Source of the DNA: a virus
DNA: 38,902 nt
Strand: one strand, 5' to 3'
IMG/VR virus record: IMGVR_UViG_3300030451_002487
Span: 1-38,902 of that record
How positions within the stretch are numbered: the stretch's first letter is position 1; each line of letters begins with the position of its first letter. Shown here in pieces: positions 1,094 to 20,795 of the stretch. Both the position numbers and the translations under genes were made by a program. The notes under the pieces are model-generated. The model made no database searches and was not told the origin of the DNA. It saw nothing but the letters and a program-made list of their open reading frames with translations.

Positions 1094-2293
1094 ATGATAG
1101 ACGAGAAGATTATTGAGAGAACAGCAAAGACGTTGAATACCGATGTGGCTACCCTAAAGGCGCACACCGATGAGGTGCTTGCTTCACAGGGTGAGGCATG
1201 GAAGAATGCCGGTAAGACTGAGGCAGACGCTTACGCTCTTGCTCTAAAGGTAGCAGGCAGTAAGATTAGGAATGCTAACGCAAGGTTGGCACGGTCAGGT
1301 GCTACTAAGATGGAAGGTATGTTTGTAAGCGTACCGCGCCCGAAGGAGTGGGGTAAGATTCTTTACAACAAGATGAAGGGTCAATTGATGAACGCTTCCG
1401 AAGAGGTCAGACAGACCTTTGTAGATAACGGCAAGATTGTTCTCTTCAATGACAACGGCGATGGTACTCATACTAGATACGCCCGTGAAGATTTCTTCGG
1501 TCAAGAGGTTAGTGAGGTAAACCAATTGCCTAACAACGCAATGCAGTTAGACGGCATGACTCACTTCTACTGCGTGTGGGACAGCAACAACCCCACATTC
1601 CCTAGCGGTGATAAGAATTTCAAGTACGGCGCAGCACGACCACAGAACGAGAGGGAAAGGACTTCCCTATTCTTTGGAAGGGCAGAGGGCGAGTCAGATT
1701 GGCGAGCCATTACTGTGACCGCACAGAGCAAGGCAGCAGACATTCAATTCCCAACCTTTACGCCACTAACTATGGCACTAAGGCTTGGCGCAAACGGAGA
1801 CAAGGCATATGTCAAGGCTGACATGACCGATGTGACTCTTGACCCCTCAAAGGCTGACATATTTGAGACAGACCCGAAGGGACTGATGGCCGCCCACTTA
1901 GGCGAAGAGAATATGCTTAGTGGCTTAGATGCCCTGCCTGCTTACTACGATACATTCAACGGCAAAGATGGTTGGTGGGACAGGATGCTTGGTGTGATAG
2001 CAGAGGTCATACACATTGACCCCCGTGACAACGGTGGCTACACTCTTGTCTGTGCCGACCTTGACATAGCCTCTACCGCACCTGTGGTTGAAGTTTATGT
2101 AGGGGCTGATGACGCTCACCGAGTGGACTTTGCCGTTGGAACAAAGATTCTCTTAGTGGGTCAGACATGGCGCACCCGCGACACCAACGAACAGCGACTT
2201 TCCGTGAACGGATGGTGGCCTTTCGATGAGGTTGAGGCTATGGTAGAAACTACCCAAACCACGTTAGATGCTGACGGTGACGGGTGGGACTGA
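1094..2293 (+). CDS. Putative OB-fold ssDNA-binding protein
   Basis: Function is inferred. The 399-residue protein begins with a helical, lysine-rich region (about residues 1-75). A middle segment (roughly 150-260) is followed by a C-terminal segment (about 295-380) rich in alternating beta strands, suggesting OB folds. It ends in a short acidic tail (TTLDADGDGWD), as is common in ssDNA-binding proteins that recruit partners. It lies between the clamp loader and the chaperonin genes in the replication operon, where a viral RPA/SSB would be expected. No catalytic motif is seen. The ATG at 1094 is preferred over a GTG at 1085 because AGGTGA at 1083-1088 is well placed as its ribosome-binding site. 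The stop overlaps the next start as TGATG. An unrelated replication accessory protein is the main alternative. Confidence 0.45.
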   Translation: MIDEKIIERTAKTLNTDVATLKAHTDEVLASQGEAWKNAGKTEADAYALALKVAGSKIRNANARLARSGATKMEGMFVSVPRPKEWGKILYNKMKGQLMNASEEVRQTFVDNGKIVLFNDNGDGTHTRYAREDFFGQEVSEVNQLPNNAMQLDGMTHFYCVWDSNNPTFPSGDKNFKYGAARPQNERERTSLFFGRAEGESDWRAITVTAQSKAADIQFPTFTPLTMALRLGANGDKAYVKADMTDVTLDPSKADIFETDPKGLMAAHLGEENMLSGLDALPAYYDTFNGKDGWWDRMLGVIAEVIHIDPRDNGGYTLVCADLDIASTAPVVEVYVGADDAHRVDFAVGTKILLVGQTWRTRDTNEQRLSVNGWWPFDEVEAMVETTQTTLDADGDGWD

Positions 2294-2541
2294 TGGCGAT
2301 TGCGCTAGGCAATTACGTTCTCCTAACCGTGACAGACGGTGAAGAAGAGATAGGCGGTTCGATAGGGCTTATAGTAAGCATGGGCAAGAAGTATTACCTT
2401 GAAAGTATGGGTGATGCAGTCTCTTGGCCTGCTTCTATTACCATAGGTGATGAGGTGGTGTTGGCAGATGAGGATAACCTTGTCCATGTGACAGGCGACC
2501 TTTACGGAACAACCGCGAGCAACGTGATGTGTGTAGTGTGA
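2293..2541 (+). CDS. groES: GroES-like co-chaperonin
   Basis: This 82-residue protein has the pattern of GroES and T4 gp31. It begins with a strand (GNYVLLTVTDG) like the GroES DRVIVKR strand. Next comes a glycine-containing mobile-loop candidate, GGSIGLIVSMGKK, whose GLIV resembles the GLII of gp31. It ends with ITIGDEVVLAD, like the GroES VGDIVIF turn, and a closing hydrophobic strand (VMCVV). The length is close to the roughly 95 aa of GroES. The start is the ATG of a TGATG overlap with the upstream gene. The GroEL-type gene begins 40 bases downstream, so the pair is arranged like a groESL operon. Its expected role is to cap the chaperonin ring during folding. Similarity was judged by eye and the identity is moderate. 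Confidence 0.7.
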   Translation: MAIALGNYVLLTVTDGEEEIGGSIGLIVSMGKKYYLESMGDAVSWPASITIGDEVVLADEDNLVHVTGDLYGTTASNVMCVV

Positions 2542-2581
2542 GAATAAGTCCCTCTAGGAATTTTATTAAGAAGGTGAAGAG

Positions 2582-4081
2582 ATGGTGGAAGAGACACTTT
2601 TAATGGGTAAAGAAGCGAGAAGGAAACTTTTACAAGGCATTAACAAAGTAGCAGATGCGGTCAAGGGGACACTCGGCCCAAGTGCTAAAACGGTTATAAT
2701 ACAGCAAGAGGATTCATTTCCCCTCATACTTAACGATGGTGTGAGTGTAGCGAGAGCAGTCAATGACCCCGACCCTTATGTGCAGATGGGTATTGACCTG
2801 ATTAAGCAGGTAGCAGAACAGGCGCAAGGTATTTCCGGTGACGGGACTACTACGGCTACTGTTATTGCTCAGGCTCTATGCAACGAGGGCTTCAAGGAGA
2901 TAGAAGACGGAAAGGACAGGCTTGAATTGTTTGAAATGATACAGGAGAAGGTAGACGAGATTATTAGAAATATTGAAGGTCACAGCCAACCCTGCGAAAC
3001 CGTTGATGATGTTTCTTCGGTGGCTAAGATTGCCGCTAACAACGACCAAGAGTTAGGTGATTTGATTGCCGATGTTATGTTAAACATAGGGTCGGAAGGT
3101 GCGATTGCTCTCAAGCATGGGAGTGGATTTGAAACCACCTTTGAGATAAAGGATGGGTTAGAGATACAGTCGGGCGCAGCAAGCCCACACTTCTCACAGG
3201 AGATGGCAAACGCCAACGTGCTGATTACTACTGACAAGATAAATAACTTTGAAAGTCTTGTTCCGGCATTAGAATTGTCGCTCAAAGAACAGAAAGGGCT
3301 GTTGATTGTCTGCGCAGACTACAACGAGTCTGTGCTTCCTAACTTATTAATTAACGTAGTGCAAGGTAAGATAAACGCCTGCCTTGTCAAACTTCCCTCT
3401 ATGGGTAAGCAACAGGAAGATTGGGCTTACGATATTCGTGCTGTGACAGGCGGCAAGGTCTTCAACAAGACTTTAGGCGACAGTCTTACAACGGTTAAAG
3501 AACATGAATTGGGATATGCTACGCTAGTGCAATGCGGCAAGGATTCCTGTGTAGTAGAAACAGACACAGGCATTGACGATGCACACTTAGATGACCTATA
3601 CCAAAAGGCAGATAACGCAGACCACGATTGGGACAAGCAGACTCTAACACGCAGAATTGCGAGACTGACGAAGGGTGTTGCTTCTATTTATGTGGGGGCG
3701 ACAACCGAGATTGAGATGCTAGAGAAGAAGGAACGCATTGACGATGCTATTAACGCCGTGAGAGCCGCCATGAGAAACGGTACTATTGCAGGTGGTGGTA
3801 TACTTCTAAACTACTACGGTATGGATAGCAAGGATGATTTGATTATGAAGGCTTTCTCAGCCCCCATGAGAACCATAGCCGAGAACGCAGGCATTGACCT
3901 ACCACCGACTATGCACGTTGAGAGAGGCTTAGATGCTAGGACAGGCAAGTTAGATGCTGACTTAGTAGCGGTAGGAATTATAGACCCTGTAGATATTACG
4001 ATTAACTCTATTAGGAGTGCAGTTTCCATAGCAAAGTTAGTCTTACTAAGTGATGCTTTGGTGGCTCTGCCACAGAGTTAG
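2582..4081 (+). CDS. groEL: Group I (GroEL-type) chaperonin
   Basis: This 499-residue ATP-driven folding chaperonin is of the bacterial GroEL class, not the archaeal thermosome class. It keeps the GroEL N-terminal pattern (ADAVKGTLGPSAKTV, 24-38), the ATP-site aspartates at D52 (NDGVSVAR) and D87 (GDGTTTAT), the hydrolytic aspartate at D388 (RIDDAINAVRAA) and AGGG (403-406). Residue numbering up to 87 matches E. coli GroEL exactly. The long built-in lid of group II chaperonins is not evident. It is about 50 residues shorter than GroEL and ends before the usual GGM tail, at ALPQS. A GGTGA ribosome-binding site at 2573-2577 precedes the ATG, and a GroES-like gene lies just upstream. It may fold capsid, tail or replication proteins. 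The nucleotide-binding residues suggest it is active. Confidence 0.93.
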   Translation: MVEETLLMGKEARRKLLQGINKVADAVKGTLGPSAKTVIIQQEDSFPLILNDGVSVARAVNDPDPYVQMGIDLIKQVAEQAQGISGDGTTTATVIAQALCNEGFKEIEDGKDRLELFEMIQEKVDEIIRNIEGHSQPCETVDDVSSVAKIAANNDQELGDLIADVMLNIGSEGAIALKHGSGFETTFEIKDGLEIQSGAASPHFSQEMANANVLITTDKINNFESLVPALELSLKEQKGLLIVCADYNESVLPNLLINVVQGKINACLVKLPSMGKQQEDWAYDIRAVTGGKVFNKTLGDSLTTVKEHELGYATLVQCGKDSCVVETDTGIDDAHLDDLYQKADNADHDWDKQTLTRRIARLTKGVASIYVGATTEIEMLEKKERIDDAINAVRAAMRNGTIAGGGILLNYYGMDSKDDLIMKAFSAPMRTIAENAGIDLPPTMHVERGLDARTGKLDADLVAVGIIDPVDITINSIRSAVSIAKLVLLSDALVALPQS

Positions 4082-4111: not shown

Positions 4112-5101
4112 ATGACTTGGGGACAAGGAACGACAACCACGAAGAAAACAGTAGCAGAAGCAGCACCAAAGACGCTGTACGACAGAGAGTATTACAGAAA
4201 CCTATTGACTGCCAAGCAGTCGCAGAAGACTTCACAGGTTCACCGCATGGCTTTGGTAGCCCATGAGAATGCCTGTAAGACAGGTCTTGCTCTCTCATTC
4301 CTAAACAATGAGATAGACGCAGGCAAGAAGGTAGCAATTATTGACATAGATAACTCTGCTTCCTCTACTGTAGATTACGTCTACCCTGACAAGGATAACA
4401 TAATGGTGATTCCTATTCTCGATGAGTCTGATGATTCTGTCTACCACGAAGATAACTCGGTAGACCACCACGCTCTTGTAAACAAGACCAAGTGGTTCAT
4501 TAACCTACTAGCAGAAGAGATTGAGGAAGCCCCTGACACATGGGGTGGCATTATATTTGACGGCGGTTCTACTTTCCTAAAGTGGTGCGAGTTTGCCATG
4601 AGGCAGTCGCTACTTGAGAAGGGTGTCATTGAGAATGAAGATGATTCCTTCAACCAAAAGGAATGGAGAGAGCGCAACCGAATGAACCGTGACGTTCTTG
4701 ACAGGCTACACGCTCTGCCTGTCGCTAAGATTTACAACACCTTCCACTTGAAGGCCATACAAGAATACATGGATGATGGCACAGGTAAGAAGGTTCTAAT
4801 GACTACGGGCGAGAGGCCCGATTGGGAGAAGGGGACAATGCGCCGATTCTCTCAGCAGATATTCCTAAGTAGATACATGAAGAAAGCAGACTTAGCCGCA
4901 GGTGTCAAGGGTGACAAAAGCCTCAATGAAGGGGAGTGGTGTGTCCGTGCAACGATTGAAGAGATGAAGGGTCAGAAGATGGAGTACGTTGGCTCGACTC
5001 ACACGGTGTTGTCTGTTGATAACGGTAAGGTCACATGGTTTGGCTTGCCATTCATAACAGATGATGAGGTGAAGAGCGATGCAAGCGACACTACCGAATG
5101 A
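4112..5101 (+). CDS. RecA/Sak4-like P-loop ATPase
   Basis: This 329-residue protein is a probable RecA-fold ATPase, similar in layout to Sak4/RadA-like phage recombinases that act on ssDNA in recombination-dependent replication. The P-loop is AHENACKTG at residues 50-58, within a hydrophobic strand (MALVA) as expected. Here Cys55 replaces the usual last glycine before K56 and T57. A Walker B-like strand GGIIFD ends at D150. A second strand pattern, KKVAIIDID (72-80), matches the early beta strand of this fold. The N-terminal 20 residues are rich in Thr and Ala and probably flexible; the C-terminus is acidic. It overlaps the clamp gene by 23 bases, which supports a replication role. Exact subfamily is uncertain; another AAA_24-type ATPase is possible. 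Confidence 0.6.
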   Translation: MTWGQGTTTTKKTVAEAAPKTLYDREYYRNLLTAKQSQKTSQVHRMALVAHENACKTGLALSFLNNEIDAGKKVAIIDIDNSASSTVDYVYPDKDNIMVIPILDESDDSVYHEDNSVDHHALVNKTKWFINLLAEEIEEAPDTWGGIIFDGGSTFLKWCEFAMRQSLLEKGVIENEDDSFNQKEWRERNRMNRDVLDRLHALPVAKIYNTFHLKAIQEYMDDGTGKKVLMTTGERPDWEKGTMRRFSQQIFLSRYMKKADLAAGVKGDKSLNEGEWCVRATIEEMKGQKMEYVGSTHTVLSVDNGKVTWFGLPFITDDEVKSDASDTTE

Positions 5102-5948
5102 TGCTATTACGATTCTTTTAAACAAGGTCAAAAGAACGCAGATGGTTGCGGGCAAGCCGCAAGACCAAGTGTTGTCCTGTGTTTTAGAGGTTATAGATAA
5201 TAAGGCTTCTGTCACTTCTCTTGTGAAAGACGGTCTAACTTCTGTCAGTAGATTTTCCTGTCTTATTGACAACCCTAAAAAGCAATTGTTTAATGCTGAA
5301 TTTTACATAACTGACATTAATACTTTCTTGGGTGCGTTGAAATACCACGGCACTAAGTTTACGCTTACACAAGACGGCGACAAACTACGCATTAAGTCTT
5401 CTAACAAGCAGACTACTTTGACTGCTTCCCCCGATGCTCTTGCATTTCCACATAACCCTGCGACACTCAAGGAGTGGCACACTACTTCTAAGAACGTTGC
5501 TAACAAGTTAGAGCGTAAGTATTTGAGAGGGTCTATTGGTGTCTTTGATTGGAATTACTTAGCAGATGGTGGCGAGAAGATACCCACAAAGTTTAGACTC
5601 AAGACAGATGCCGTGACTCTCTACGAAGCGTTGCGGTGCGATTCAATGAACGGTCAGAAGATTAACCGTTATAATTTCTTTTTCGATTGGGAAACAAGTA
5701 AGGGGTTTGAAGTAAGAGTCGGCAACGAATTGAAAGGTCAGACTACTAGCCTACTAGACCTACCAAGTGAGGGCGTGGGTGCTTTCAAGATGGATGCCAC
5801 CTTTGAGGGTGGATTAGAGCAATTGACACAGCACCTACATGGCGAGATTAACCTAAACTTCCTAGATTTCAGTCAGCACGGACAGGGCTACAAACTGATT
5901 ATAGATTTAGGTGACAACGACTTTGTTTTTCAGTCGTCAATAAAATAA
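5079..5948 (+). CDS. Sliding clamp (gp45/PCNA-like)
   Basis: This 289-residue protein is a probable ring-shaped processivity factor for the polymerase at 6254. The segment ITDINTFLGALKY (about residues 78-90), followed by strands with DGDKLRIKSSNKQTTL, resembles the T4 gp45 pattern YDLNGFLGILSL and its next strands. The C-terminal half again shows alternating beta strands and ends in LIIDLGDNDFVFQSSIK. It is longer than typical archaeal PCNA (about 245 aa). The start is supported by AGGTGA at 5067-5072, six bases before the ATG, inside the end of the upstream gene. Its place between the ATPase and polymerase genes, with a clamp loader upstream, supports the call. Overall sequence similarity to host-type PCNA is weak by eye. 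Confidence 0.7.
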   Translation: MQATLPNDAITILLNKVKRTQMVAGKPQDQVLSCVLEVIDNKASVTSLVKDGLTSVSRFSCLIDNPKKQLFNAEFYITDINTFLGALKYHGTKFTLTQDGDKLRIKSSNKQTTLTASPDALAFPHNPATLKEWHTTSKNVANKLERKYLRGSIGVFDWNYLADGGEKIPTKFRLKTDAVTLYEALRCDSMNGQKINRYNFFFDWETSKGFEVRVGNELKGQTTSLLDLPSEGVGAFKMDATFEGGLEQLTQHLHGEINLNFLDFSQHGQGYKLIIDLGDNDFVFQSSIK

Positions 5949-5960
5949 AGGTGAAAAAAG

Positions 5961-6257
5961 ATGGATGAAGGTTGGATGACGTTGATAAGCGACATAGAAT
6001 ATACGATACAAAACATGATTGCGCTTGGTGTAGAGGGCGATGCTGTTTGTGAAGACAGTAAATATAAGGTGTACCTTACTTTAGTAGAGAAGAATAAGCC
6101 CAAGCATTACCGTGACCCTGTTTGGTTGAGAAACGCATACATAGAAGAGAACAGGTCTATGGCCGACATAGCAATGGAGTTTGACATAACCCCTGCGGCT
6201 GTGAACCAATGGCTTAACAAGCACAACATAGAGACACGGAAGCGTGGTGTACGGTGA
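5961..6257 (+). CDS. Small helix-turn-helix DNA-binding protein
   Basis: This 98-residue protein has a clear C-terminal helix-turn-helix (about residues 56-92). It is of the kind seen next to homing-endonuclease and resolvase-like domains: WLRNAYIEENRSMADIA, then FDITPAAVNQWLNKHNI. The basic tail ends TRKRGVR. The N-terminal half is unrecognised and helical. A GGTGA motif upstream of the ATG is a good ribosome-binding site. Its stop overlaps the GTG start of the polymerase gene (GTGA), so the two are likely translationally coupled. It could be a transcriptional regulator or a replication accessory protein that binds DNA; the sequence does not decide. Confidence 0.7.
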   Translation: MDEGWMTLISDIEYTIQNMIALGVEGDAVCEDSKYKVYLTLVEKNKPKHYRDPVWLRNAYIEENRSMADIAMEFDITPAAVNQWLNKHNIETRKRGVR

Positions 6258-8497
6258 TTGTCACTAAGGCGCGCGGCAATACTGTCATAGTGCGGGAACG
6301 TACCGAAGACGGCAGAAGAAAGGAGACTGTGATTTCTGCTTATAACCCTTATTTTTTTGTAAGCACTTCTGATGCCGACCTTGCCCCCGCCATACACAAA
6401 GAGGATGGCTACAATTGCATATACGGCACGAAACTTACTAAGATAACAGTAGCAGACGCGGGCGACATATACGATTTCAAGAAGCAGAACCCCGATGTTA
6501 TGACATGGGAGGCAAACATTCCCTTTGTCAATAGGGTTCTGACCGAGAGATTGCGACATGGCGAAGAGCCTTTCAAGCAATACGAGCATAGGACTTGGTA
6601 TTTAGATGCCGAGTGGAGTCCCACAACCAATGAGATGAGGGTTATAGTAGTTTACGATTCCTTCACCGAGAATGAATATGTTTGGTTTGTGGATAAGAGC
6701 CTACAAGACAAAACTATGTCTTCGGTAGAGTATGTTAAGCACAAAGAATTTGGCGGTTATACTTATGATACTCCGGCTCTTGGATTTAGGTCAGAGCGTG
6801 CTATGCTGACTCACTTCTTGAAGCACATGGACTTACAAGACCCCGATATTATTACGGGTTGGTTCGTAGTAGGTGCAGACATTAAGACGATAGTAGAGAG
6901 GTGCAGAGCCGTAGGCGTGCAGCCTACCACTATGAGTCCTATGCGCCGCCTTAACTATTCCTATAGAGATTGGGAACAACCAATTGTGGGTAGGAATTGT
7001 ATAGACCTTATGTTAGCCTTCACTAAACTATGGGAATTGAAGAATGGAAAACTCCCTTCTAAGAAATTAGACGATGTAGCGATGGAGGCTTTGGGCGAAA
7101 AGAAGATTGAATTGCCTGACGGCCACGACACATACTTGACTAACCTGCCTCTATACATTCACTATTGTAGGCAAGACGTAAGACTTCTACCTAAATTAGA
7201 CGCTAAAGTAAACGCTCTTGACTACTACACTTCCCTACAGCACATTGTCCAATGTGACATACGCTCTACTCCCTTCATTACCAAGATGTTCTCATGCTTG
7301 GTGCTTACAGATAAGGATAACAAGGGTAGGATTCCTACTGACCCCCTCTTCCGCTACGAAGCATACGAAGGCGCAGACGTTATGGAAGTAGATGCGGGCC
7401 TGTATAACAAAGTAGGTATTTTAGACATTAAAGCAATGTACCACAGCAACGCAGACCTTTACAATATTTCTTGGGACACTTTAGCATTGCCCGAAGAGGG
7501 ACAGGACTGTGGAAACGGCACGCACTTTTGCCAAAAGGAGAAGGGTTTGCTAGTCCGTCAAATGGATAACATGACTAACCTGCGAAATAAATTCAAGCGG
7601 TTGATGAAGCATGACCCCGATAACTATGAGCGATGGGACACAATGCAGTTTGCTTGTAAGTCTTTGGTCGCTTCCATGTATGGGGTTGCCGGAGATTCTA
7701 AATATGGTCTTTACCACCCCGCAGTAGCGGCGGCAATTACCCACACTTCTAGGGCTACCCTAAACAGGCTCAAGATGATAGCCGAGGAAGAGGGAAATAA
7801 GGTCATTTACGGCCACACAGACAGCGTGTTTTGCGAAATAGATAGTCCGGCTAGGGGCGAGGCATTAATACGCTCTATTAACGCTAAAATGAAGCCCATT
7901 GAAGTAGAGTTTGAGAAGTGGTGTGAGAGCATGGTGCTGATGGCTAAGAATAGATACGCCGGAAGGGTGACTTGGACTGATGGCAACGCTCACGAACCCA
8001 CGCTTTATGTTAAGGGTATAGAATTGAAGCAGTCTAGGATGCCCCCTATTATGAAAGAGGTCATGTCAGAAACGATTAACATGATACTTGCCAATAGAGA
8101 GGAAGAAGAAGTAAACGATATGCTAATACCAATTATAAACAGTATAGTTAATGAGGAAATAAGCGTAGATGATTTGGCTATGAAGGGCAAACTTGAGAAG
8201 AACCTGAGCGAATACAAGGTGCTGTCCGGCCCTAGCGCGGCGGCGGCTTGGGCTAACGAATACTTAGGCAAGGGTTATAGAAGTGGCTCTTATTTTAAGG
8301 TTATACTTGACGACAACGGTAAGTATTTAGCCTTCGATGAGCCGTCAGATTTAGACGGGATTGCTTTGGTTGGGTACAAGACCATGTGCGATAGATTTGT
8401 GTTGCAGAAACTAAGACCCTACTACGATATGATGGGTTGGTCTACGCAACGACTTCTCAACGCCTACATGGGATTAGGTCATTTGTCTTGGGTATGA
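6254..8497 (+). CDS. polB: Family B DNA polymerase with 3'-5' exonuclease
   Basis: This 747-residue replicative DNA polymerase should be held on DNA by the clamp at 5079. The proofreading exonuclease is intact: Exo I D118 and E120 (YLDAEW), Exo II D209 (GWFVVGADIKT), Exo III Y304 and D308 (YCRQD). The polymerase domain has motif A at D391 (DIKAMYHS), motif B ending in ACKSLVASMYG (467-477), motif C YGHTDS (519-524) with D523, and a KxRY-type motif KNRYAG (565-570). Motif C has His where YGDTDS is more common; the second, essential Asp is kept. Translation starts at a GTG overlapping the upstream stop (GTGA). No intein or terminal-protein-priming insertion is evident, so it fits RNA- or DNA-primed replication using the primase in this module. 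Confidence 0.97.
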   Translation: MIVTKARGNTVIVRERTEDGRRKETVISAYNPYFFVSTSDADLAPAIHKEDGYNCIYGTKLTKITVADAGDIYDFKKQNPDVMTWEANIPFVNRVLTERLRHGEEPFKQYEHRTWYLDAEWSPTTNEMRVIVVYDSFTENEYVWFVDKSLQDKTMSSVEYVKHKEFGGYTYDTPALGFRSERAMLTHFLKHMDLQDPDIITGWFVVGADIKTIVERCRAVGVQPTTMSPMRRLNYSYRDWEQPIVGRNCIDLMLAFTKLWELKNGKLPSKKLDDVAMEALGEKKIELPDGHDTYLTNLPLYIHYCRQDVRLLPKLDAKVNALDYYTSLQHIVQCDIRSTPFITKMFSCLVLTDKDNKGRIPTDPLFRYEAYEGADVMEVDAGLYNKVGILDIKAMYHSNADLYNISWDTLALPEEGQDCGNGTHFCQKEKGLLVRQMDNMTNLRNKFKRLMKHDPDNYERWDTMQFACKSLVASMYGVAGDSKYGLYHPAVAAAITHTSRATLNRLKMIAEEEGNKVIYGHTDSVFCEIDSPARGEALIRSINAKMKPIEVEFEKWCESMVLMAKNRYAGRVTWTDGNAHEPTLYVKGIELKQSRMPPIMKEVMSETINMILANREEEEVNDMLIPIINSIVNEEISVDDLAMKGKLEKNLSEYKVLSGPSAAAAWANEYLGKGYRSGSYFKVILDDNGKYLAFDEPSDLDGIALVGYKTMCDRFVLQKLRPYYDMMGWSTQRLLNAYMGLGHLSWV

Positions 8498-11176: not shown

Positions 11177-11845
11177 ATGTTAGATTATAGTATATCTCTT
11201 ATTGAGAAGCCGATAGCGAAAGAAATCATAGTAGCAAACCACTACACGCATAAGTGGTCTTCTTGTCGTTATGCTTTGGGTTTATTCTTGGGTGATGAAT
11301 TACATGGGGTAGCGATTTATGGTTTTCCTGTGGGTAGGCAAGTGGTGAAATCAATTTCCCCACAATTAGAAAACCAAGATGTATTAGAATTGACAAGGCT
11401 TTGGCTCAGAGATGAAGCACCAAAGAATAGTGAAAGTTTCTTCATTGGGCAGACTTTCAAATGGCTCAAGGAAAATACAGACACTAAGGTTCTTATCAGT
11501 TATGCAGACCCTATGGCAGACCACTTGGGTATCATATACCAAGCAACCAATTGGCTTTATCAAGGTAATAATACCATGTTAGTTAAGGGTTATTTACATA
11601 AGATTAACGGAGAGTGGATGCACCCAAGAAGTGCGGTGGCAAAGTACGGTACGGTTAAGACTTCTAAACTGCTTGAAATAGACCCTGAGTACGAAAGAAA
11701 GGAATTGAAGAAGAAGCACAGGTACATCTATATCTTGACAGACAAGCGAGAAAAGAGAAAGATACTTGCGACACTAAAGCATCCTGTTTTACCTTACCCT
11801 AAAAACAATAAGAATTGTGAATGGCAGTCCTTAAATAGACCCTAA
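11177..11845 (+). CDS. Mom-like DNA adenine modification protein
   Basis: This 222-residue protein has the pattern of the Mom family, GNAT-related enzymes best known from phage Mu, where Mom converts adenine in DNA to a carbamoylmethyl form that blocks restriction. Recognisable parts are NHYTHKW (about 21-27), LGLFLGDELHGVAIYGFPVG (34-53), an ELTRLWL segment, a serine-containing ESFFIGQTFKWL, and ISYADP..HLGIIYQATNWLYQG. The C-terminal 50 residues are rich in Lys and Arg, suited to DNA binding. The expected role is to protect viral DNA from host restriction. No separate activator such as Mu Com is recognised, although the 46-aa zinc-ribbon gene just upstream has the size of Com. Substrate and modification are inferred from the family. 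Confidence 0.72.
   Translation: MLDYSISLIEKPIAKEIIVANHYTHKWSSCRYALGLFLGDELHGVAIYGFPVGRQVVKSISPQLENQDVLELTRLWLRDEAPKNSESFFIGQTFKWLKENTDTKVLISYADPMADHLGIIYQATNWLYQGNNTMLVKGYLHKINGEWMHPRSAVAKYGTVKTSKLLEIDPEYERKELKKKHRYIYILTDKREKRKILATLKHPVLPYPKNNKNCEWQSLNRP
11827..11840 (+). promoter_or_regulatory. Second-class promoter-like element, + copy
   Basis: GTCCTTAAATAGAC here is identical to a 14-bp sequence on the - strand at 29964-29977. TTAAATA (11831-11837) is a TATA-like box 25 bases before the ATG at 11863. It lies within the last codons of the Mom-like gene. It could start a leaderless transcript for the ERCC4-type nuclease, whose ATG lacks a clear ribosome-binding site. Confidence 0.5.
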
Positions 11846-11862
11846 AGCAAACCACTACTAAG

Positions 11863-12579
11863 ATGTTAGTGATAGACGACAGAGAGAATGAGAAGGTTCA
11901 AAATAAGATACTTCTGCGCATGGGTCTTTGGCCCGATAACCCAAAGGGGTTAGCAAAGGTAGCAAGACTCAAGAGCGCAGACTATGTTATAGGGCAATGG
12001 GGTATAGAGGCTAAAGAAATCAATGACTTGTATAGGTCTATCATGGGTTTCGGAAGAACGAGGACTATAGTAGACCAATTGCGTGACTTAGAGGAAAACT
12101 TTGACAAGCCCTTCCTCATAGTGTACGGTACTAAACTAAAGCCCTATGTGCAGGGGAGGCCAAACGCACAGCGCATGGCTATAGAAATGGCTAGGATGGT
12201 AAAGGTGATAGAGAAATTCAAACTTACCTTCTATCAACGCTTCCCTAAGATAAAATTCATGCAGTTAGATAGCATGGATGCTTTCGTAGATTATTTAGTA
12301 GTCAATCACACTCAATTATCTGTCAATGGGCAATCGGGCGTGGCTAACATTCCTGACTTTGTGAAGAAAGCAGGTCAGGAAAAAAAACAAGATGGTCGCG
12401 TCAAAGTATTAACAAGTATACCGGGTATAACACCTGCTATGGCAGTAGATTTGCTACAAAAATTTGGCAGCCTTCCACAAATACTTCACAGCAGACGCAC
12501 TCAGAAAGACCTTATGGAAATCAATGGCATTGGTAGAACTAAAGCGAAAAAAATCCTTGATTTGAGAACAAAGTTTTAA
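11863..12579 (+). CDS. ERCC4-type nuclease with helix-hairpin-helix tail
   Basis: This 238-residue structure-specific nuclease is of the XPF/Mus81/Hef family. The ERCC4 site is visible as DDREN (5-9, with R7 and E8), SADY (38-41, D40) and IEAKE (48-52, with E49 and K51). The usual ERK is changed to EAK here. The C-terminal 60 residues carry a tandem helix-hairpin-helix: IPGITPAMAVDLLQKFG, then INGIGRTKAKKIL. No helicase domain is present, unlike Hef. It may cut forked or branched replication and recombination intermediates. It is the last gene of the + module, and its stop overlaps the stop of the opposite-strand hub gene. Confidence 0.9.
   Translation: MLVIDDRENEKVQNKILLRMGLWPDNPKGLAKVARLKSADYVIGQWGIEAKEINDLYRSIMGFGRTRTIVDQLRDLEENFDKPFLIVYGTKLKPYVQGRPNAQRMAIEMARMVKVIEKFKLTFYQRFPKIKFMQLDSMDAFVDYLVVNHTQLSVNGQSGVANIPDFVKKAGQEKKQDGRVKVLTSIPGITPAMAVDLLQKFGSLPQILHSRRTQKDLMEINGIGRTKAKKILDLRTKF
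12547..12553 (-). terminator. Candidate poly-T terminator of the late operon
   Basis: Reading the - strand, a run of seven T lies 23 bases past the stop of the tail hub gene. A second run of eight T is at 12387-12380. Archaeal RNA polymerase ends on such T tracts without a needed hairpin. Both runs fall inside the oppositely oriented nuclease gene. The call is by position and composition only. Confidence 0.35.
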
Positions 12580-15500
12580 CGATAAGGCAAAAACACATTG
12601 CTTCTGTTGTCTGCGTTAAACGCCGCACGCTTAAAGTTAATGTCCATGTTTGTCACGGATAATGTAGAGTAATTTGCTGAGTCATTTCCTATTCCGGGTG
12701 TCCTACTAAATGTAAAGACTAAAGTATTGCCGCTTGTGCCTGCCCCCGACAATGATGTTGTCGAAGATAATTGCATATTTGCTTTCTTAGTACCTGTAGG
12801 AACAGAAAGTGTTTCTGAAAACTCTGCGCCTGTCTCAAGACATTTAGCGTGTATTTTTAACAGGGCCGCCCTATCAGTATTTGCAGAGGAAGGCAGTTTA
12901 ACATCGGCCATAATATTTATTTCATCGCTTATAGCATCTTTTGGTGTTTTAATTTCTACTTCTACTTGATGCTCTATTTCTTTCTTGCTAAAGGCTATTT
13001 CTCCCGCACCTACTCCTTCATCTTTTCCTTTGCCGGGTAGGTCAAACCCGTTGCCGTTGCTTGTTGCTGAACCCTGTGTAGGGTGAACTCTAAGTGGGCC
13101 TGTCATACCACGCATAGAAGAAGGGGTAGTAGACGTTTTTGTTTGCCCTAAAATGTTATTGGCATACTGCGCTGTGAATTCACTTCCACCACCTATTAGA
13201 TTCTTCATTATAGCCATGTAAGTACCCCTGTCAAACGAATTCATGTTTATAGAATCAGGACTAAAAGAGCCGCCGCTACCACCGCTACCTCCATCAGCCT
13301 CAGTCCAATTATTATTCACAGGGTCGCCCGGTGAATACTCACTACCCGGCTCAGTAGTTAGATTATCTTGTGGTGAGGGTGCTATAGCAGAATTATTACC
13401 ACCACTACTTGTCGTGGGGTTGGGTAGTTTTGGGGGCGCAAAGATGTAATCCATAATACCTTTACTGCTTGTAGATTCGTCTTCGCTTAGTCTTAGTAGC
13501 ACACGCTCTTTACCCATTTCTACTTGCCAATCTACGTCAGTCACAACCATAGTCAGGTTGTCAATATCAAGCCCCGCGTCTGTGTATTTAACAAACGTAC
13601 CGGGTACATAATTTAAGTCGTCTACAATATGTAATGCGGGTGCATACCACAACGACCTATGTGCGCCCATACCGCCTTTCAAACTCGGATAACTTCTACA
13701 GCCTAATGGGAAAATAGATTTGTTATTATATTGTCCGTTAGTAATCATAAGACTTATTTCACTATCGCTTTCTGCTGTAGCACCACCGATTTGTGTTTGT
13801 CCGTTTGTAAGAATAGTATACACTCCGCTTGATTGAGCATTTATATCTCCACATCTTGTCCTAAGAAGGTCACGACAATAATCAGCGTTAAAAGAAATTA
13901 CAATTTTGCCTGATGAATGATAAGAGGAAGGAACATCAATCTCGTAGAAACCGTTATGCTTGCATTCCACAGAAGTATAATGGTTGTTAGAAGATATGTA
14001 GCCATTTAGGGTGACAGAACCGCTTGCAGATACTTTGTCGTAGCCTGCATCAATAAGATATACTTGAAAAATTGCGCTATCAATATCTGTAGTTTTATCT
14101 GCATCAGCAAGAGTTTTTAGAGCAACTACTACACGTAGTTTTTCTCCTGTGTCGGCACTTACTTTTGGTATGTCTTTGCCTACGTGGACTACCTGTACCG
14201 CATAAGAAACTGACCTTGCGCCATAAGTAGTGTAGTTATCATTGTGCGCTACTGTACCTGTATTTATATCGCTGTCTCCGTACCTTGTGTGCATAGTGCT
14301 ACTTGTGACTGTATTACCCATGTTGCCGTCAAGCCCGCTTACCATGCCGGGGAAAATAACACCGCCCGTACCCTGTATTGTCCAACACCACGCTGTGTTT
14401 GCACTATCATCACCATCACCCTGAGAGGCTACTTGTGCGTCTGCTATGTAGCCGTATTTTCCACCGTCTAGCATTACATCTTCGTCTTGCGGTGCAAAGA
14501 GAGGCAACGGCTCTATTTGTAGGCTAATTGGGTTTTTCTTTCTTGAGTTATATTCTTGCTCTGCCAATCCCAAAGCCTCTACTCTGCTTATTACATTATC
14601 ATGCTCGATTATTTTCCACGTAGTAGTATCTCCTATCGCGGGCGAGGGGAAATCAACGAATTGCTTGCCGTTATCAAACAAGCATCTGACATACTCTACT
14701 CTTTCTTTTTGAGACATAGCAAAATCAGTCACATTTACGTTGTTTCTAGTAAAACTATAACCGCTATTATACTTGGGCCTAAACTCAAGCCTGTTGTCTC
14801 TACCAACTAACCAAGAGAAAGATGTAAACAAAGAATTGTTAAAGCCGACTCCGCCCGCTTTTTGTGTATCAACCACGGTTCTCATCAAAGTCTTGCTGTT
14901 AGTCTCAAGCACACTACCGTAAGAGTCTTGTTCGCTGTTGGTGTTGTATGTAGTCATTTTATCTGTAATGGGTATGTTATTTATATCAAACATATTTGTT
15001 ATCTTAGTTTTGGCAAGCCAATTCTCCATTATTCCCATGTTCCACAAGGCTCTCATTTTGTCAGAGTTATAGAAAGTACCGCTATTTAGATTTAGATATT
15101 TACCGTCTATTTTCATCATTAATCTGTAGGCGTATTCGTTGGCTACAGAATTGTATAGTGTCAAAACAGGCCATACTGATTCGTCTATGTTGGTTTTTAT
15201 ATGTGGGTGCGCAGTACCACCGGAAGACACAAAGGCTCTCATTTGGTCTACTAATGCTGACTCTATTCCGCTTTGTGTCCACACGTTATCTGTAGTCGCT
15301 ATTGTCACAGAATCTAGCATTACATTAAATAATTGCTTAGGTATTTTTAGGTTATGGCCGGTAGCCCACCCGTCTGTTATTTCATCAGCAGTCAAACCGG
15401 AGTCTCTAACTCGCAAACCGCTTGTTAGTCCCTCTGAGTTTTCTTCTGTGTTTAGAGCCTTCTCAAATGAGTAATAGATTACTCTTTCTATGTGTAGTAC

Positions 15501-18500
15501 GGTTTCACTAACTACTTTTTTAACTCTATAGTAGTGGTCTTGCGCATCTCCGGTTCTCCAAGAATTACCAACGCCTCTAACTAGAGGCTTAGATGTGTTT
15601 TGGACATACGCGCCTTTCTTTACGCCATCAGAGATAAACGTAGCCCCGGATTTAGTAATTACAAAGTGTTGGTCGTTTTCTGCGGGCGTTGTGACTGTGA
15701 CGCTTGAAGCAGTTATGTCACTTGCTATCTTACCGTTCCATTGGAAGAACCACTCACTTCTGTTTTCCGTTTCTATTTTAGAGCCTAGTAATCTTCCTAT
15801 GCCGTTGTCGTCAAAGATAGTAGTATCTAGTGGTTCTAACCAAAACTCTCCTTTGTTAAGACCATCTGCTAAAGAAGTCTTGCCCGATACTAACTTGTTT
15901 AGGTTAGTGTGTTTGTGGTAATCGTTGTCTGTCGTAAGAGAAGTAGAAGCGGCGTTTCTGTAGTAAGAATCTATCAACACCGGGTCGCCAACACCTACTG
16001 CGTAGTAATCTCCCAAGTCTGTCTGCCCACCACCCTCTTGATTAACCATACCTTTGTTAGCAATAGTATTAAGGTTAAAGAATTTGCTTGTATCAACAAC
16101 CATAAGCGCACCTCCTTTGTTTTCCCAATCTTGATATTGTGCGGGGGCAACATCAGAACCCGTAGTCTTAGCGAAAAAGTGCTTTTCTACTGTTCCGCTT
16201 GCTACGGGGCTTGCAGAAAGTGTGGTTTCTATTCCAAACCCTACAGGGCTGTTGCCCGTTATACCTACTTTGTATACTCCATCTACTGTACCAAAATTTA
16301 TTAAACCAACATAGTCTCCTACAGACAGGCCGTGGTTAGCATCGGCTATATAGATGTAGGACTTACCACTAGCAGTAGTAATGCTAACATCATTACCCGC
16401 AACGGCAATCATGTTGTCATAGTCTAAAGGTTTTGAATATGCGCCTCCTGTAGAGGGGTCGTTTGTAGAATCCAAAGTCCACAAGTCATAATCGTCATTC
16501 ATTTTTAGTGTAGTAAAATTCTTGTAGTTTCCGCTTTCATCTACTTGGTCGTCAAATTGAATTTGTAGGCTATAATTGTCTGTCACGGGAGATTTCAGAC
16601 CAAAGTTTTTCTTTCTCAATCCGCCGTCTGCATCTGCTGTGCCATCGTTTCTCATGTCTGCCCACAAAAGCCACAAGTGTTTGTAAGCGTCACGGTTTTG
16701 TATAACGTGTATTTGTGTAGGAACAGCACCAAAAGAGCCTGCGCTACTCCAAGCATTAACGGTAAGGGGGTGTCTAAGGGCTACATATTTGCATCCTCCC
16801 ATCCACCATTTACTACCGTCATAATACTTACATCTGTAGATAAAGAAGTCTCTAAGATTTTGCTGTGCCTCAAAGGTTAGTGCTGCCTGTGCTTGGTCTA
16901 ATACTGCCACACCCGCGTTAGGAATAGCGTTGTATGTAGCCTGTGTTATCTCAATATCTGTAGCCCCGGCATCTACTTGGGCAACCAAATCAAAAGACCT
17001 TTGTGGAGTGTATTGTATCTGCGCAAAGTGGTATCTAAAGTATAGAGAGTGTGGTAAATCTTGCATCCACTTAGCGTGGACAGGTCTTTCTTTTATGCTT
17101 TCAGTATGTGAAGCGGGAGTAGGGGAAGTAATAATCATTTTTCTTTCTTTACTCCAAGACAATTGTTGGTTTGTACCTCCCCAATAAGAAGAATTTAATA
17201 GCCCTTCTTTCAAATCAAAATCGCCTATTGTCCCATCTGTCCAACCGTCAGGTAGGGGCGTATAGGTTTGCACTTGCCATAGGAAACGTTGTCTTTTGTC
17301 AGCAGCAAGTGGGTTGCCGTGGTAGTTAATTACCTTTCTAACAGTCTTGGCTATATGTCTGCCTCTTATTGCCTTTTTAGCCCCTGCGCTTGTGGCTAAA
17401 TTAGTGCTTGTTTCTGTATTGCTGATAACAAACCCGTCACCGGGGTTTATGGGGAAGGTAGTGTCTCCGCTTTCTGTTGAGAAAAAGAATGTTAGATAGT
17501 CTGTGCTTGCTTGCTGTGCGTATTCAAACTCTGCATCGAAATCTGAGGCTATTGCTGTCACCCTTAGAGTGACAAAGCAGAAATGCCCATCGCCCGATGA
17601 TGTTTCTTTAAAGGCAAGCCTACACTTAATAACGTCATCTATGGCATATCCATGCCCACCATTTATTACCGTGGCTACTACAGTATCAGTAGTGCCTCCC
17701 GTAAATTTTAACTTAATAACTAAGTTATTACCTGTTCCGCTTGCGTTTGTCTCGTTAGTAATAATGTTATCGTTGCCGTTGGTAGGCATAGAGCCATCGC
17801 CGGGGTCATAAGAATCCGGTATTTGTCCATCTACCCACGGCAAAGAGCAATGATATACACCATCACCGTTGGGTGATTGCGCCACAAGGTCATCGTAGTC
17901 ACCACCTACCAAATTATCTAATGTTTGTGTACCTGCACCCCAACCTTGCTTTTTAACAGTTTGAAGAGCAAGACCGGAAGTAGGGTAGGATTGTATACCA
18001 TCGTTGCTTTTACTATCAGCGTTATTTATTCTATCTGTGTTAAACCAATTGTCTAACAAAGTTTCGTTTGCGCCCGTAGCCCTGTAGCCCTTGCCCGGAT
18101 TGGTAATTGTGACTTTGCCTATGTTGCCGTAATACCAAGAAGACCTTGATTGATTTACAAAGGGGATATTTTGTGCATTAAGACTATAACTTGGTGTTAT
18201 TCCTTCCCATTCTGCTGTTGCAGTTTCCCCTTCCCAATGTGGGTCTGAACCGGGGTTAGCGGTGTTTGGATTTTCGGGGGCAGGCATACTAATCGTACCC
18301 TTGCTTACTTTTTCCCCATCAACAGTAGTGTAATAACCGTTTGCTACAGTATAGCCCCACCCGTGATTTGTCATTCTTATACCCGATATAGAAGCACGCC
18401 CGTTTTCGTAGGTAGCGGGGTGATTCGCAATAAAATCAGCATAATTATTCCAATGCTGTACGTTGCTTACGGGGTCAGGGAAATTCCAAAACTCAAACTC

Positions 18501-20795
18501 AGGATAATCGTGCGGAATAGACGGGCCTACATATTTACCTACATAGCATAGGTTAGAGTATTCGTCTGTCCAATTTAGTTGGCCGCTACCCGTACCGATT
18601 GCTACAGTTAGCACTTCATAGGGGTCGGTAGCACTATAAGTCACTATTTCTCCCGCGCTGTTAATGCTGTGGTGTGCCGTTATAGCCACAGTAGTACCAT
18701 CTAATGCGGCTCTACCGGAATAATTAAGGGTTATATTTCCACTAGAACCCATGTTGGGGTTGCCTGACAAAACCAAACGAAGTCCGGTGTTGTCCTTGTA
18801 AAAATAATCAATACCCATGCCTTCGTAGTCTTCCCAAATACTATTAGGGCCAAAGGAATCTTCATTGTTATACATCTGTATAGGCATACCCGAACCTAAC
18901 TGTGTTCTTTGGTCTGCTATGTTCTCGTAATCATTAGAAAACTCTCTGCCTATCTTGCTTGTGAATTGTTTTAGGACAGACGTACCCATGTCCATGACCT
19001 CCATGAGTCCTTGTGCATCGTAAGCCCAATACGCTTGTTGATTCTCAGTAGATTTGTCCTTGTTTTGCCCTAACTCCCACAACGGTATTTGCTTTTCCAT
19101 TGCTGTTAAAGTATCTGTTGCGTTTATGCTAATTACTCTACCTCTTCTTTTTTGATTTATGTTTATACTAGAAACAACGCCTCTCCATATTGGTCTGTCA
19201 ATATGTGGCACATCAACGTAGCCTGTTCTACCCCCACCTGCGAAGAGAATTAAGCCCCAATCGTTAAGTTTGTTGCCTCTCATTACGCTTGTAAAATTGT
19301 GAGCGTAATCTGTCGTGTTAAATCCGTAGTCATCTATACTGTCGTAATCATCAGCATCGTCAATTAATTCTATCTGACAATTGCTGAAACCATTGATAGT
19401 AGTTTGCATTTTCATGTTAGTCAAAGGAGGAATGTCTCTTTCCGTAGGGTCGTCTGTTAGGGGTCTATACAACGCCGCCCTGTCTAGTAGCAGCGTAGAA
19501 GATACGTTGTTGCTTCCGCTTGTTGGGTGCATAAAAATCTGCCACCCGTACATATCTTCTGCTTTGATATTAGAGCCTGTAAAGGATTGGTTAGCAAGTA
19601 TCTTAGTGCCATCCCTGTATACTTCAAATTTTTGAGTGTCGTAGTTTAGATGCACATCAACATCTAACCAAGAATCGTTATTGTTGTAAGCCAACCGAGT
19701 AGAAGAGTTTTCATATAGCAGGGGACAAGTATCATAAGTAGAGCCTAAAGCCAAATCAAATGAAACAACGGGATTTCCTGTTAATCCGTTTTCAAAAGAG
19801 CCTAGTGCGGGTGATGATGTGCTACTGTAGCCCGCCTTTATTGTGACTTTGGGTGTGACTTTACCTGCGCCGTTAAAAGAACGGACAGCCAACCTAAATG
19901 TAAGTATGTCATGCGTGTCTCTTGAATGTAAATCACCGTCATAATAAATTGTAGGTAGGTCAGGCGTACTGTCGCTACCCGTTCTGTTGTATTGCTGCAC
20001 GCACAGAAAAGGCATACCCGAAGGAGACTCTAAGGGTGCGAAAATATTTTTTGGCCTGCCGTTGCTAATACCTGCATCAGTATACAAGTGGGTTTCACCC
20101 ATCCATCTACCTGCTAGGTGCGCTCTGCGAACCATTGTCAGAGTAGAAGTGTTTCCGTTGATACCACTACCGCTACCTTCCATAGTAGCAAGCCTAACCC
20201 ATGAGTTTTTACCTGCTGTGCCTGCTTTGTAGGTAGTGTTGTCCCCATAACCCGTCATACTCTGACGGCCAAACGAAGAATCTATATCGCCTGTAGGTAT
20301 GACATATCTTCCTAAAGTATTATGCCCGTTGCATATAATTTGTGCGGCATCGCCGGGTTGTGGGTGTGAGTTTGTTCTCGGAAATGTCCTAAAAAAGTTA
20401 GTGTTTGTATGCCCATCAGGATATTGTAGTTTTGCCCTGCCCATTTGTTTAGCAGAATAGTTTCTATTACCGTCATAAGAAAGCCATTCGAAATTACCTT
20501 TGTTGTGGAGAAATCTCATAGTGTCAGGCGCAAACCCATATGGTTGCGTGGCCGCATTTGCCGCACCATAAGCACTTTGAATTGTCAATCTATCGTAATA
20601 AGACCATCTAAAACGAGGGTTAAGAGTAGCCTCTCCGTTTAGTGGGTTGCCGAAATGTGTATAAGCGTGCGTGTATACACCCGTAAAAGTATTATCAGGG
20701 CTATTGAAATCGCTAGGCACGGCTCTTGCACCGTTAAAGTCATCGTAGTAGCCCACTAACCATGCGCCGTACTTGTCTTTGACTGCTCTTACCAT
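12576..20795 (-). CDS. Giant tail hub/tip protein
   Basis: This 2739-residue protein follows the tape measure gene, the usual place of the siphovirus tail hub or distal tip. Residues about 280-440 look like a LamG-type beta sandwich. Residues about 535-570 (IWRGVVSSININQKRRGRV, then SINATDTLTAM) and about 2030-2110 and 2390-2440 (TMVVTDVDWQVEMG) resemble the split halves of phage hub proteins of the gp27/late-control D type. Between the first and second parts is an insertion of roughly 1350 residues rich in Gly, Asn, Thr and Tyr beta strands, including GxGY repeats. A Pro/Gly/Ser linker with GGSGGSGG (near 2505) leads to a C-terminal beta domain. It probably binds the cell surface. AGGTG precedes the ATG and overlaps the tape measure stop. 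The hub assignment is inferred from pattern and synteny. Confidence 0.75.
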   Translation of the reverse strand: MVRAVKDKYGAWLVGYYDDFNGARAVPSDFNSPDNTFTGVYTHAYTHFGNPLNGEATLNPRFRWSYYDRLTIQSAYGAANAATQPYGFAPDTMRFLHNKGNFEWLSYDGNRNYSAKQMGRAKLQYPDGHTNTNFFRTFPRTNSHPQPGDAAQIICNGHNTLGRYVIPTGDIDSSFGRQSMTGYGDNTTYKAGTAGKNSWVRLATMEGSGSGINGNTSTLTMVRRAHLAGRWMGETHLYTDAGISNGRPKNIFAPLESPSGMPFLCVQQYNRTGSDSTPDLPTIYYDGDLHSRDTHDILTFRLAVRSFNGAGKVTPKVTIKAGYSSTSSPALGSFENGLTGNPVVSFDLALGSTYDTCPLLYENSSTRLAYNNNDSWLDVDVHLNYDTQKFEVYRDGTKILANQSFTGSNIKAEDMYGWQIFMHPTSGSNNVSSTLLLDRAALYRPLTDDPTERDIPPLTNMKMQTTINGFSNCQIELIDDADDYDSIDDYGFNTTDYAHNFTSVMRGNKLNDWGLILFAGGGRTGYVDVPHIDRPIWRGVVSSININQKRRGRVISINATDTLTAMEKQIPLWELGQNKDKSTENQQAYWAYDAQGLMEVMDMGTSVLKQFTSKIGREFSNDYENIADQRTQLGSGMPIQMYNNEDSFGPNSIWEDYEGMGIDYFYKDNTGLRLVLSGNPNMGSSGNITLNYSGRAALDGTTVAITAHHSINSAGEIVTYSATDPYEVLTVAIGTGSGQLNWTDEYSNLCYVGKYVGPSIPHDYPEFEFWNFPDPVSNVQHWNNYADFIANHPATYENGRASISGIRMTNHGWGYTVANGYYTTVDGEKVSKGTISMPAPENPNTANPGSDPHWEGETATAEWEGITPSYSLNAQNIPFVNQSRSSWYYGNIGKVTITNPGKGYRATGANETLLDNWFNTDRINNADSKSNDGIQSYPTSGLALQTVKKQGWGAGTQTLDNLVGGDYDDLVAQSPNGDGVYHCSLPWVDGQIPDSYDPGDGSMPTNGNDNIITNETNASGTGNNLVIKLKFTGGTTDTVVATVINGGHGYAIDDVIKCRLAFKETSSGDGHFCFVTLRVTAIASDFDAEFEYAQQASTDYLTFFFSTESGDTTFPINPGDGFVISNTETSTNLATSAGAKKAIRGRHIAKTVRKVINYHGNPLAADKRQRFLWQVQTYTPLPDGWTDGTIGDFDLKEGLLNSSYWGGTNQQLSWSKERKMIITSPTPASHTESIKERPVHAKWMQDLPHSLYFRYHFAQIQYTPQRSFDLVAQVDAGATDIEITQATYNAIPNAGVAVLDQAQAALTFEAQQNLRDFFIYRCKYYDGSKWWMGGCKYVALRHPLTVNAWSSAGSFGAVPTQIHVIQNRDAYKHLWLLWADMRNDGTADADGGLRKKNFGLKSPVTDNYSLQIQFDDQVDESGNYKNFTTLKMNDDYDLWTLDSTNDPSTGGAYSKPLDYDNMIAVAGNDVSITTASGKSYIYIADANHGLSVGDYVGLINFGTVDGVYKVGITGNSPVGFGIETTLSASPVASGTVEKHFFAKTTGSDVAPAQYQDWENKGGALMVVDTSKFFNLNTIANKGMVNQEGGGQTDLGDYYAVGVGDPVLIDSYYRNAASTSLTTDNDYHKHTNLNKLVSGKTSLADGLNKGEFWLEPLDTTIFDDNGIGRLLGSKIETENRSEWFFQWNGKIASDITASSVTVTTPAENDQHFVITKSGATFISDGVKKGAYVQNTSKPLVRGVGNSWRTGDAQDHYYRVKKVVSETVLHIERVIYYSFEKALNTEENSEGLTSGLRVRDSGLTADEITDGWATGHNLKIPKQLFNVMLDSVTIATTDNVWTQSGIESALVDQMRAFVSSGGTAHPHIKTNIDESVWPVLTLYNSVANEYAYRLMMKIDGKYLNLNSGTFYNSDKMRALWNMGIMENWLAKTKITNMFDINNIPITDKMTTYNTNSEQDSYGSVLETNSKTLMRTVVDTQKAGGVGFNNSLFTSFSWLVGRDNRLEFRPKYNSGYSFTRNNVNVTDFAMSQKERVEYVRCLFDNGKQFVDFPSPAIGDTTTWKIIEHDNVISRVEALGLAEQEYNSRKKNPISLQIEPLPLFAPQDEDVMLDGGKYGYIADAQVASQGDGDDSANTAWCWTIQGTGGVIFPGMVSGLDGNMGNTVTSSTMHTRYGDSDINTGTVAHNDNYTTYGARSVSYAVQVVHVGKDIPKVSADTGEKLRVVVALKTLADADKTTDIDSAIFQVYLIDAGYDKVSASGSVTLNGYISSNNHYTSVECKHNGFYEIDVPSSYHSSGKIVISFNADYCRDLLRTRCGDINAQSSGVYTILTNGQTQIGGATAESDSEISLMITNGQYNNKSIFPLGCRSYPSLKGGMGAHRSLWYAPALHIVDDLNYVPGTFVKYTDAGLDIDNLTMVVTDVDWQVEMGKERVLLRLSEDESTSSKGIMDYIFAPPKLPNPTTSSGGNNSAIAPSPQDNLTTEPGSEYSPGDPVNNNWTEADGGSGGSGGSFSPDSINMNSFDRGTYMAIMKNLIGGGSEFTAQYANNILGQTKTSTTPSSMRGMTGPLRVHPTQGSATSNGNGFDLPGKGKDEGVGAGEIAFSKKEIEHQVEVEIKTPKDAISDEINIMADVKLPSSANTDRAALLKIHAKCLETGAEFSETLSVPTGTKKANMQLSSTTSLSGAGTSGNTLVFTFSRTPGIGNDSANYSTLSVTNMDINFKRAAFNADNRSNVFLPYR

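Follow-up and report, generated by a model that had tools for sequence, protein, structure and literature searches.

The window analysed here, the whole 38,902-base stretch of IMG/VR virus record IMGVR_UViG_3300030451_002487, carries a pair of adjacent open reading frames (ORFs) that encode a GroES-like co-chaperonin and a bacterial-type, group I chaperonin, GroEL, with 40 bases between them:

2293–2541, + strand: co-chaperonin of predicted GroES/gp31 fold, 82 residues (profile match, AlphaFold2, Foldseek and VIA, roof-segment length, TGATG overlap)
2582–4081, + strand: group I chaperonin GroEL by homology, 499 residues, without a GGM tail (Pfam, PHROG, NCBIfam, PDB profile, tree, alignment)

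The ATG of the co-chaperonin overlaps the stop of the preceding 402-residue gene (TGATG), and an alternative GTG start at 2284 would extend the protein to 85 residues. A second IMG/VR record is 99.93% identical to the window over 10,078 nt (the two samples are possibly not independent); because of this record, and because all 15 loci from our initial scan of viruses, near-copies included, repeat the GroES–GroEL order, the pair is not an assembly accident. An earlier note on this DNA had described the pair with these coordinates and this spacing, with D52, D87 and D388 in the chaperonin and no GGM tail, and the ORFs and alignment bear it out on each point.

A divergent group I chaperonin

Homology places the product of 2582–4081 among the group I chaperonins. 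It matches Pfam Cpn60_TCP1 (1.3e-36), PHROG groEL (1.6e-99) and the NCBIfam GroEL model NF009487 (399.6 bits, passing the cut-off of 352), the best thermosome model in NCBIfam reaching only 48.2 bits. A profile of ten viral GroEL sequences, the window's included, retrieves full-length GroEL/Hsp60 chains from the PDB at 7.6e-92 to 2.3e-129, against 4.7e-43 for the best group II chain (best 60 of 167 matches). With TIGR02348, the strict GroEL equivalog, the protein scores 383.4 and does not reach the cut-off of 582.1, and its best identity to phage records is 35.7% among the matches listed, so we regard it as a divergent member of the group.

D52, D87 and D388 are all present, the last aligning to E. 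coli D398, and D52, D87, D398, T89, T90, G414, G415 and D495 are conserved in 24/24 viral rows of the GroEL alignment. There is no lid-like apical insertion in the alignment, in agreement with the note, which had found the group II lid lacking, and a thermosome identity was rejected on the NCBIfam scores, on the tree described below and on the lack of a helical-protrusion lid. The GGM tail is found in 16/16 rows from Marine Group II (MGII) archaea and in 6/7 bacterial rows, against 0/24 viral and 0/12 phage rows. The position of E. coli R197, the pairing partner of E386, holds R in 7/7 bacterial and K in 16/16 MGII rows; the viral rows have S, A, T or G (24/24).

A co-chaperonin resembling gp31

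Profile search and predicted fold together identify the 82-residue product as a divergent co-chaperonin of the GroES/gp31 fold. A profile of ten viral sequences, including the window's, matched Thermus Cpn10 (5.5e-5) and T4 gp31 (1.1e-3) in the PDB. AlphaFold2, given the 85-residue form from the upstream GTG and ten aligned sequences, returned a model of β-strands with a mean predicted local distance difference test score (pLDDT) of 79.9, in which low-confidence residues 20–32 match the GroES mobile loop in position. Foldseek returned only GroES, Cpn10, Cpn20 and gp31 chains among its top 33 matches (best E 1.9e-4), and VIA-align placed gp31 at Z 9.6 (2.0 Å over 66 residues), its top 16 rows all being GroES family, with quinone oxidoreductases next at Z about 6. 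The mobile-loop motif of the window is GLIV, and G-L-(I/V/L) occurs in 38 of the 41 viral rows with letters at the loop.

GroES possesses a roof hairpin that gp31 lacks, and the hairpin does not define the superfamily. The roof segment spans 17 residues in five of six bacterial rows and 12 in the remaining one; in all 42 viral rows it is down to 8–11 residues and the hairpin is missing. Cellular GroES of MGII (loci L149–L174) lacks the hairpin too, with 8–9 residues in 15/16 distinct rows, a count restricted to co-chaperonins found with an E. coli seed. The exception is a bacterial-type row, probably a contaminant: one bacterial-type GroES (L161, genome G274) was met in a Poseidoniales genome whose MGII-type copy sits on a different contig. 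Viral and MGII GroES profiles match one another with 92% probability over 48 columns.

Ancestry within the group I lineage of MGII

We built a maximum-likelihood GroEL tree of 63 rows: 24 viral, 16 MGII, 12 phage, 7 bacterial and 4 group II, with no group III rows. The viral rows are the window and 23 representatives (less than 88% alike) of 59 full-length GroELs, a window-identical copy being omitted; the MGII rows come from 20 fetched Cpn10-bearing stretches, 16 of which gave a GroEL (L188, L195, L196 and L197 did not). Group I separates from the four group II rows with support of 100/100, the 24 viral proteins form one clade (100/100) apart from the phage and bacterial rows, and this clade is sister to the 16 MGII cellular GroELs (99/99). 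Dropping 13 long-branch or outgroup rows leaves the viral–MGII union at 100/99. This tree thus puts the viral GroEL within group I, with the GroEL of MGII (Poseidoniales) as its sister; the distinct chaperonin lineage that the note had suspected is, in these terms, a viral sub-lineage beside the MGII cellular one. The chaperonin does not group with thermosomes, and the 82-residue protein, with its predicted GroES fold, is conserved beside viral GroEL.

Origins from bacterial phages were rejected by approximately unbiased tests, both for a grouping with the Vibrio phage pair (p 0.017) and for one with Flavobacterium, Bacteroides and huge phages (p 0.00015), the groups having been picked after the tree was seen. 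Identity of the window GroEL is about 34–37% to MGII and 33–35% to bacterial GroELs; one MGII GroEL is about 51–53% identical to the bacterial GroELs listed. No relatives turned up when genome contigs were first scanned for the viral GroEL profile; the profile of MGII cellular GroEL, run against viruses, yielded three loci from 31 stretches.

An optional two-gene cassette

The pair sits between two genes that were used to follow it through related viruses:

1085–2293, + strand: 402-residue gene (A3), no assigned function, directly 5′ of the pair; no Pfam or PHROG match, kept in relatives
4112–5101, + strand: 329-residue P-loop ATPase-like gene (A4), directly 3′ of the pair; Pfam AAA_24 at 2.3e-4, below cut-off

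A scan with the downstream ATPase found 288 viral relatives, of which the best 80 were counted; cassette loci were not thinned and include near-copies. GroEL lies upstream of the ATPase in 65 of the 80 loci; 15 show none, and two of these end at the ATPase. The other 13 are empty sites, at which the 402-residue and ATPase genes overlap by 1–8 nt and both chaperonin genes are missing. Wherever the 402-residue gene and GroEL are both present, GroES lies between them (54/54 loci). None of ten empty-site records tested, several of them short fragments, has a Cpn60 family member elsewhere, and two empty-site records followed from end to end have no ORF of at least 45 residues with a match to any of three profiles (viral GroEL, viral GroES, MGII thermosome). 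Within the replication operon, GroES and GroEL behave as a single cassette of two genes that is optional. On an ATPase tree (59 different rows, each at least 280 residues) the cassette label needs a single change, at a branch support of only 63/48, so gain and loss are indistinguishable. MGII cells keep the GroES–GroEL order in 16/16 loci, at spacings of −4 to 24 nt.

Divergence was compared across 46 loci with all four genes (980 pairs, omitting those with ATPase identity of at least 97%). Median identity is 0.565 for the 402-residue gene, 0.293 for GroES, 0.445 for GroEL and 0.653 for the ATPase, and GroEL is less similar than both flanking genes in 916 of the 980 pairs. Its ratio of non-synonymous to synonymous substitution rates (dN/dS) is 0.09 in two pairs, which indicates strong purifying selection; for GroES, one pair of relatives gives 0.17. 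The apical domain is the least conserved part of the viral GroEL (0.398, versus 0.509 for the equatorial domain), a pattern found in phage GroELs also and not in bacterial or MGII rows.

Replication operon and host

As far as 12,579 the larger ORFs of the window are replication-type and lie on the + strand; beyond it they are virion-type and lie on the − strand. Beyond the cassette and its neighbours, the assignable genes are:

88–1044, + strand: clamp-loader gene, replication factor C small-subunit-like (best NCBIfam match replication factor C small subunit, 4.8e-39, below cut-off; PHROG clamp loader, 1.9e-37)
5079–5948, + strand: possible sliding clamp (weak PHROG match to DNA polymerase processivity factor, 0.0028; no NCBIfam match)
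6254–8497, + strand: family B DNA polymerase (Pfam, 7.5e-37)
11863–12579, + strand: ERCC4/XPF-Hef-type nuclease with helix-hairpin-helix (Pfam ERCC4 and HHH over cut-off; NCBIfam Hef 1.3e-18 and archaeal Xpf 6.2e-7, both below cut-off)

A single-stranded DNA-binding role for the 402-residue gene would be only a guess. The ORF at 11177–11842 (+ strand) has a weak, below-cut-off match to the XF1762 family (1.2e-4), and 12576–20795 (− strand) is an ORF of 2739 residues whose positional counterparts in four relatives are 2196–2692 residues long and mutually 32–37% alike.

The window belongs to a tailed virus whose host is probably an ocean archaeon. An MGII host is suggested by the GroEL tree, by archaeal-type replication genes (NCBIfam matches below cut-off), by the polymerase, for which tblastn has haloarchaeal tailed viruses among the best matches listed (about 25% identity), and by published assignments of similar viruses. 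Ten Poseidoniales genomes were reached by a 16S probe (ten of the 67 probe loci were used). All ten have Cpn60_TCP1 members, 30 in total, and only one has a group I GroEL with GroES. A Cpn10 match occurs in only 49 of 292 Poseidoniales genomes, a count in which a few matches are weak or partial, one genome has a bacterial-type copy and incomplete genomes may hide GroES. Many MGII genomes therefore appear to be thermosome-only. The note's premise that archaea normally use the thermosome needs a qualification: some archaea have group I chaperonins besides their group II thermosomes (PMC5220055), and group I chaperonins are published for MGII cells and viruses (PMC5332604, PMC10768690).

A probable virus-borne folding machine

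We put at roughly 85% the probability that the window encodes a virus-borne GroES–GroEL folding machine, one that shares its lineage with the group I chaperonin found in some MGII archaea and is carried as an optional cassette by MGII-type tailed viruses. Its basis is sequence, gene order, predicted fold, ancestry, catalytic residues, purifying selection on GroEL and the behaviour of the cassette. Most likely the pair would work in the normal group I manner: GroEL rings would take up ATP and unfolded protein, the latter at hydrophobic apical sites, a heptameric co-chaperonin would dock through its GLIV mobile loop and shut the cage, and ATP hydrolysis would time release. Three parts look remodelled, namely a roofless, gp31-like co-chaperonin, a cavity without GGM tails and a GroEL without Arg or Lys at the R197 position; together these would leave the cage roomier or more open and loosen its allostery. 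Most likely the pair would serve to fold viral proteins by the group I route while the virus infects hosts many of which are seemingly thermosome-only. More tentatively, the cassette may be a folding system that is self-contained and transferable, with old MGII-related ancestry and a cage open at either end, since GroES has lost its roof and GroEL its tails. Viruses would bring it into thermosome-only archaea as a separate group I pathway for their own proteins, and both genes would come and go together at a single fixed junction of the replication operon.

Several points weigh against a virus-borne folding machine. As a single sequence, the 82-residue protein matches neither Pfam (at 0.1) nor PHROGs, and one pair, of 82 codons and with low dS, gives it a dN/dS of 0.64. 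The predicted GroEL model, a monomer, has pLDDT below 50 over residues 1–89, the region with two of the catalytic aspartates. Loss of the GGM tail is not special to the viral clade, since 12/12 phage rows lack it as well. The viral stem is long (1.38) and both trees carry long-branch warnings, which leaves the depth of the viral branch unsure. A search of 318 Poseidoniales genomes for the flanking ATPase, made without a positive control, gave no hit (0/318), so there is no direct gene link between virus and MGII; of the archaeal-virus replication operon proposed in the note, the operon stands, and its host is archaeal by inference. The same standing applies to assembly, capping, cage size, expression timing and clients. 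Finally, the viral rows do not conserve the residues that join the two rings of E. coli GroEL (K105, A109, E434, R452, E461, S463 and V464); these positions vary in phage rows and partly in MGII rows too.

The unconserved inter-ring positions make a single ring possible, E434 being deleted in 13 of the 24 viral rows, and a single-ring chaperonin has been reported for phage AR9 (PMC9598537). That the viral chaperonin acts in single-ring form, or needs no co-chaperonin, like some phage chaperonins, nevertheless seems doubtful, as the co-chaperonin gene stands beside GroEL in every testable locus (54/54). The positions of L234, L237 and V264, GroES contacts of E. coli GroEL, are moreover hydrophobic in all 24 viral rows.

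A machine dedicated to the major capsid protein would follow the T4 precedent of gp31 and gp23 (PMC6318259), and chaperonins have been described as aiding virus assembly (PMC5332604). We compared four relatives of 67–72 kb, two with the cassette and two without. Terminase (76–80% identical) and portal (69–81%) are conserved across all four. A candidate capsid protein of 298–307 residues, called by position (PHROGs and Pfam gave no family match), is 70–82% identical among cassette-bearing G305 and G306 and cassette-free G299; it was not seen in G293, where the neighbouring genes sit at the end of the record. The cassette would thus be dispensable for some viruses that have the capsid gene, unless its function comes from the host, and the genes shared by cassette-free relatives argue against a universal need in capsid folding. 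We therefore consider a dedicated capsid-folding role unlikely. The candidate capsid protein, small (about 300 residues) and conserved in a cassette-free relative, likewise gives no support to the note's suggestion of large virion or replication proteins as clients, and an argument from capsid size for a larger cage was dropped on the same grounds. Between its portal and candidate capsid genes, G305 also has an ORF of 1963 residues (L305:6852–12743) with no BLAST match among the ORFs of G306, G293, G299 or the read part of G308.

It is also conceivable that the virus modifies a host machine, its co-chaperonin mainly capping host GroEL and its own GroEL being secondary or a mixed-ring partner. 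The roofless GroES, like T4 gp31 (PMC6318259), and the existence of group I GroEL and GroES in some MGII cells would suit such a role. We judge it quite improbable, given that no GroES was found without GroEL, that the 13 empty-site loci lack both genes, that neither empty-site record followed from end to end matches either viral profile and that so few Poseidoniales genomes (49/292) have a GroES match to begin with. That the pair is decaying baggage of a past gene capture is very hard to believe: faster divergence than both flanks (916/980 pairs) and the one GroES dN/dS of 0.64 would fit decay, but the catalytic residues are kept in 24/24 rows, GroEL dN/dS is 0.09 in two pairs and 59 viral GroEL frames are full length.

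If the cassette is a virus-borne folding machine, a virus that brings in a complete group I pair would offer a natural test of whether two chaperonin groups in one cytoplasm take different clients. Relatives with and without the cassette that share terminase, portal and candidate capsid would make the purpose of the chaperonin testable by comparison.

Comparison with known systems

The kind is already known, since group I GroEL/GroES has been published for MGII viruses (PMC5332604, PMC10768690). According to Nishimura et al. 2017, the chaperonins of 20 MGII viral genomes in clades 2–4 are of the bacterium type and group with those of MGII, and 18 viral genomes of clade 1 have chaperonins of the thermosome type (PMC5332604). 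Clades 2–4 resemble the window in having a group I GroEL in tailed viruses assigned to MGII; the text of that paper does not contain the word GroES, and the comparison is by description only. Thermosomes are also reported in predicted archaeal viruses (PMC8276007), and a word search of the main text of a 2023 magrovirus survey gave no mention of chaperonins (PMC10160649). The 2023 profile of the Aoguangviridae (magroviruses) by the International Committee on Taxonomy of Viruses names both GroEL and GroES (PMC10768690). These viruses share with the window the chaperonin pair, family B polymerase, clamp (a possible one in the window), clamp loader and oppositely oriented replication and virion clusters. 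They differ in genome size, 90–100 kb against 72 kb for the longest window relative seen (completeness not given), and in an MCM helicase, which their profile gives and which was found in 0/9 records of the window's virus group (G000, G293, G299 and G303–G308, window included, some fragments); the window virus was for this reason not filed in the family.

Among the papers listed by our literature searches, none reports cassette behaviour or a roofless co-chaperonin in archaeal viruses in its title or at the start of its abstract, a weak negative. Within that scope, five details had no match in print: the optional two-gene cassette, the roofless gp31-like co-chaperonin that MGII cells share, the loss of the GGM tail, the divergence faster than the flanks and the GroES match in only 49/292 Poseidoniales genomes.

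Cellulophaga phage phi38:1 and the Flavobacterium immuto and elemo phages also have GroEL and GroES genes adjacent or close to one another; they differ in their bacterial hosts and in GroELs that are not sister to the viral clade. T4 gp31 is alike in its fold and missing roof loops, and T4, unlike the window virus, is not known to carry a GroEL of its own. The chamber of the complex with gp31, which lacks roof loops, is about 8% larger (PMC6318259). The cellular GroES–GroEL of MGII is alike in its sister GroEL, the same gene order and a roofless GroES, and differs in the GGM tail that its GroEL keeps; the roofless co-chaperonin of MGII cells would be a cellular counterpart of T4 gp31.

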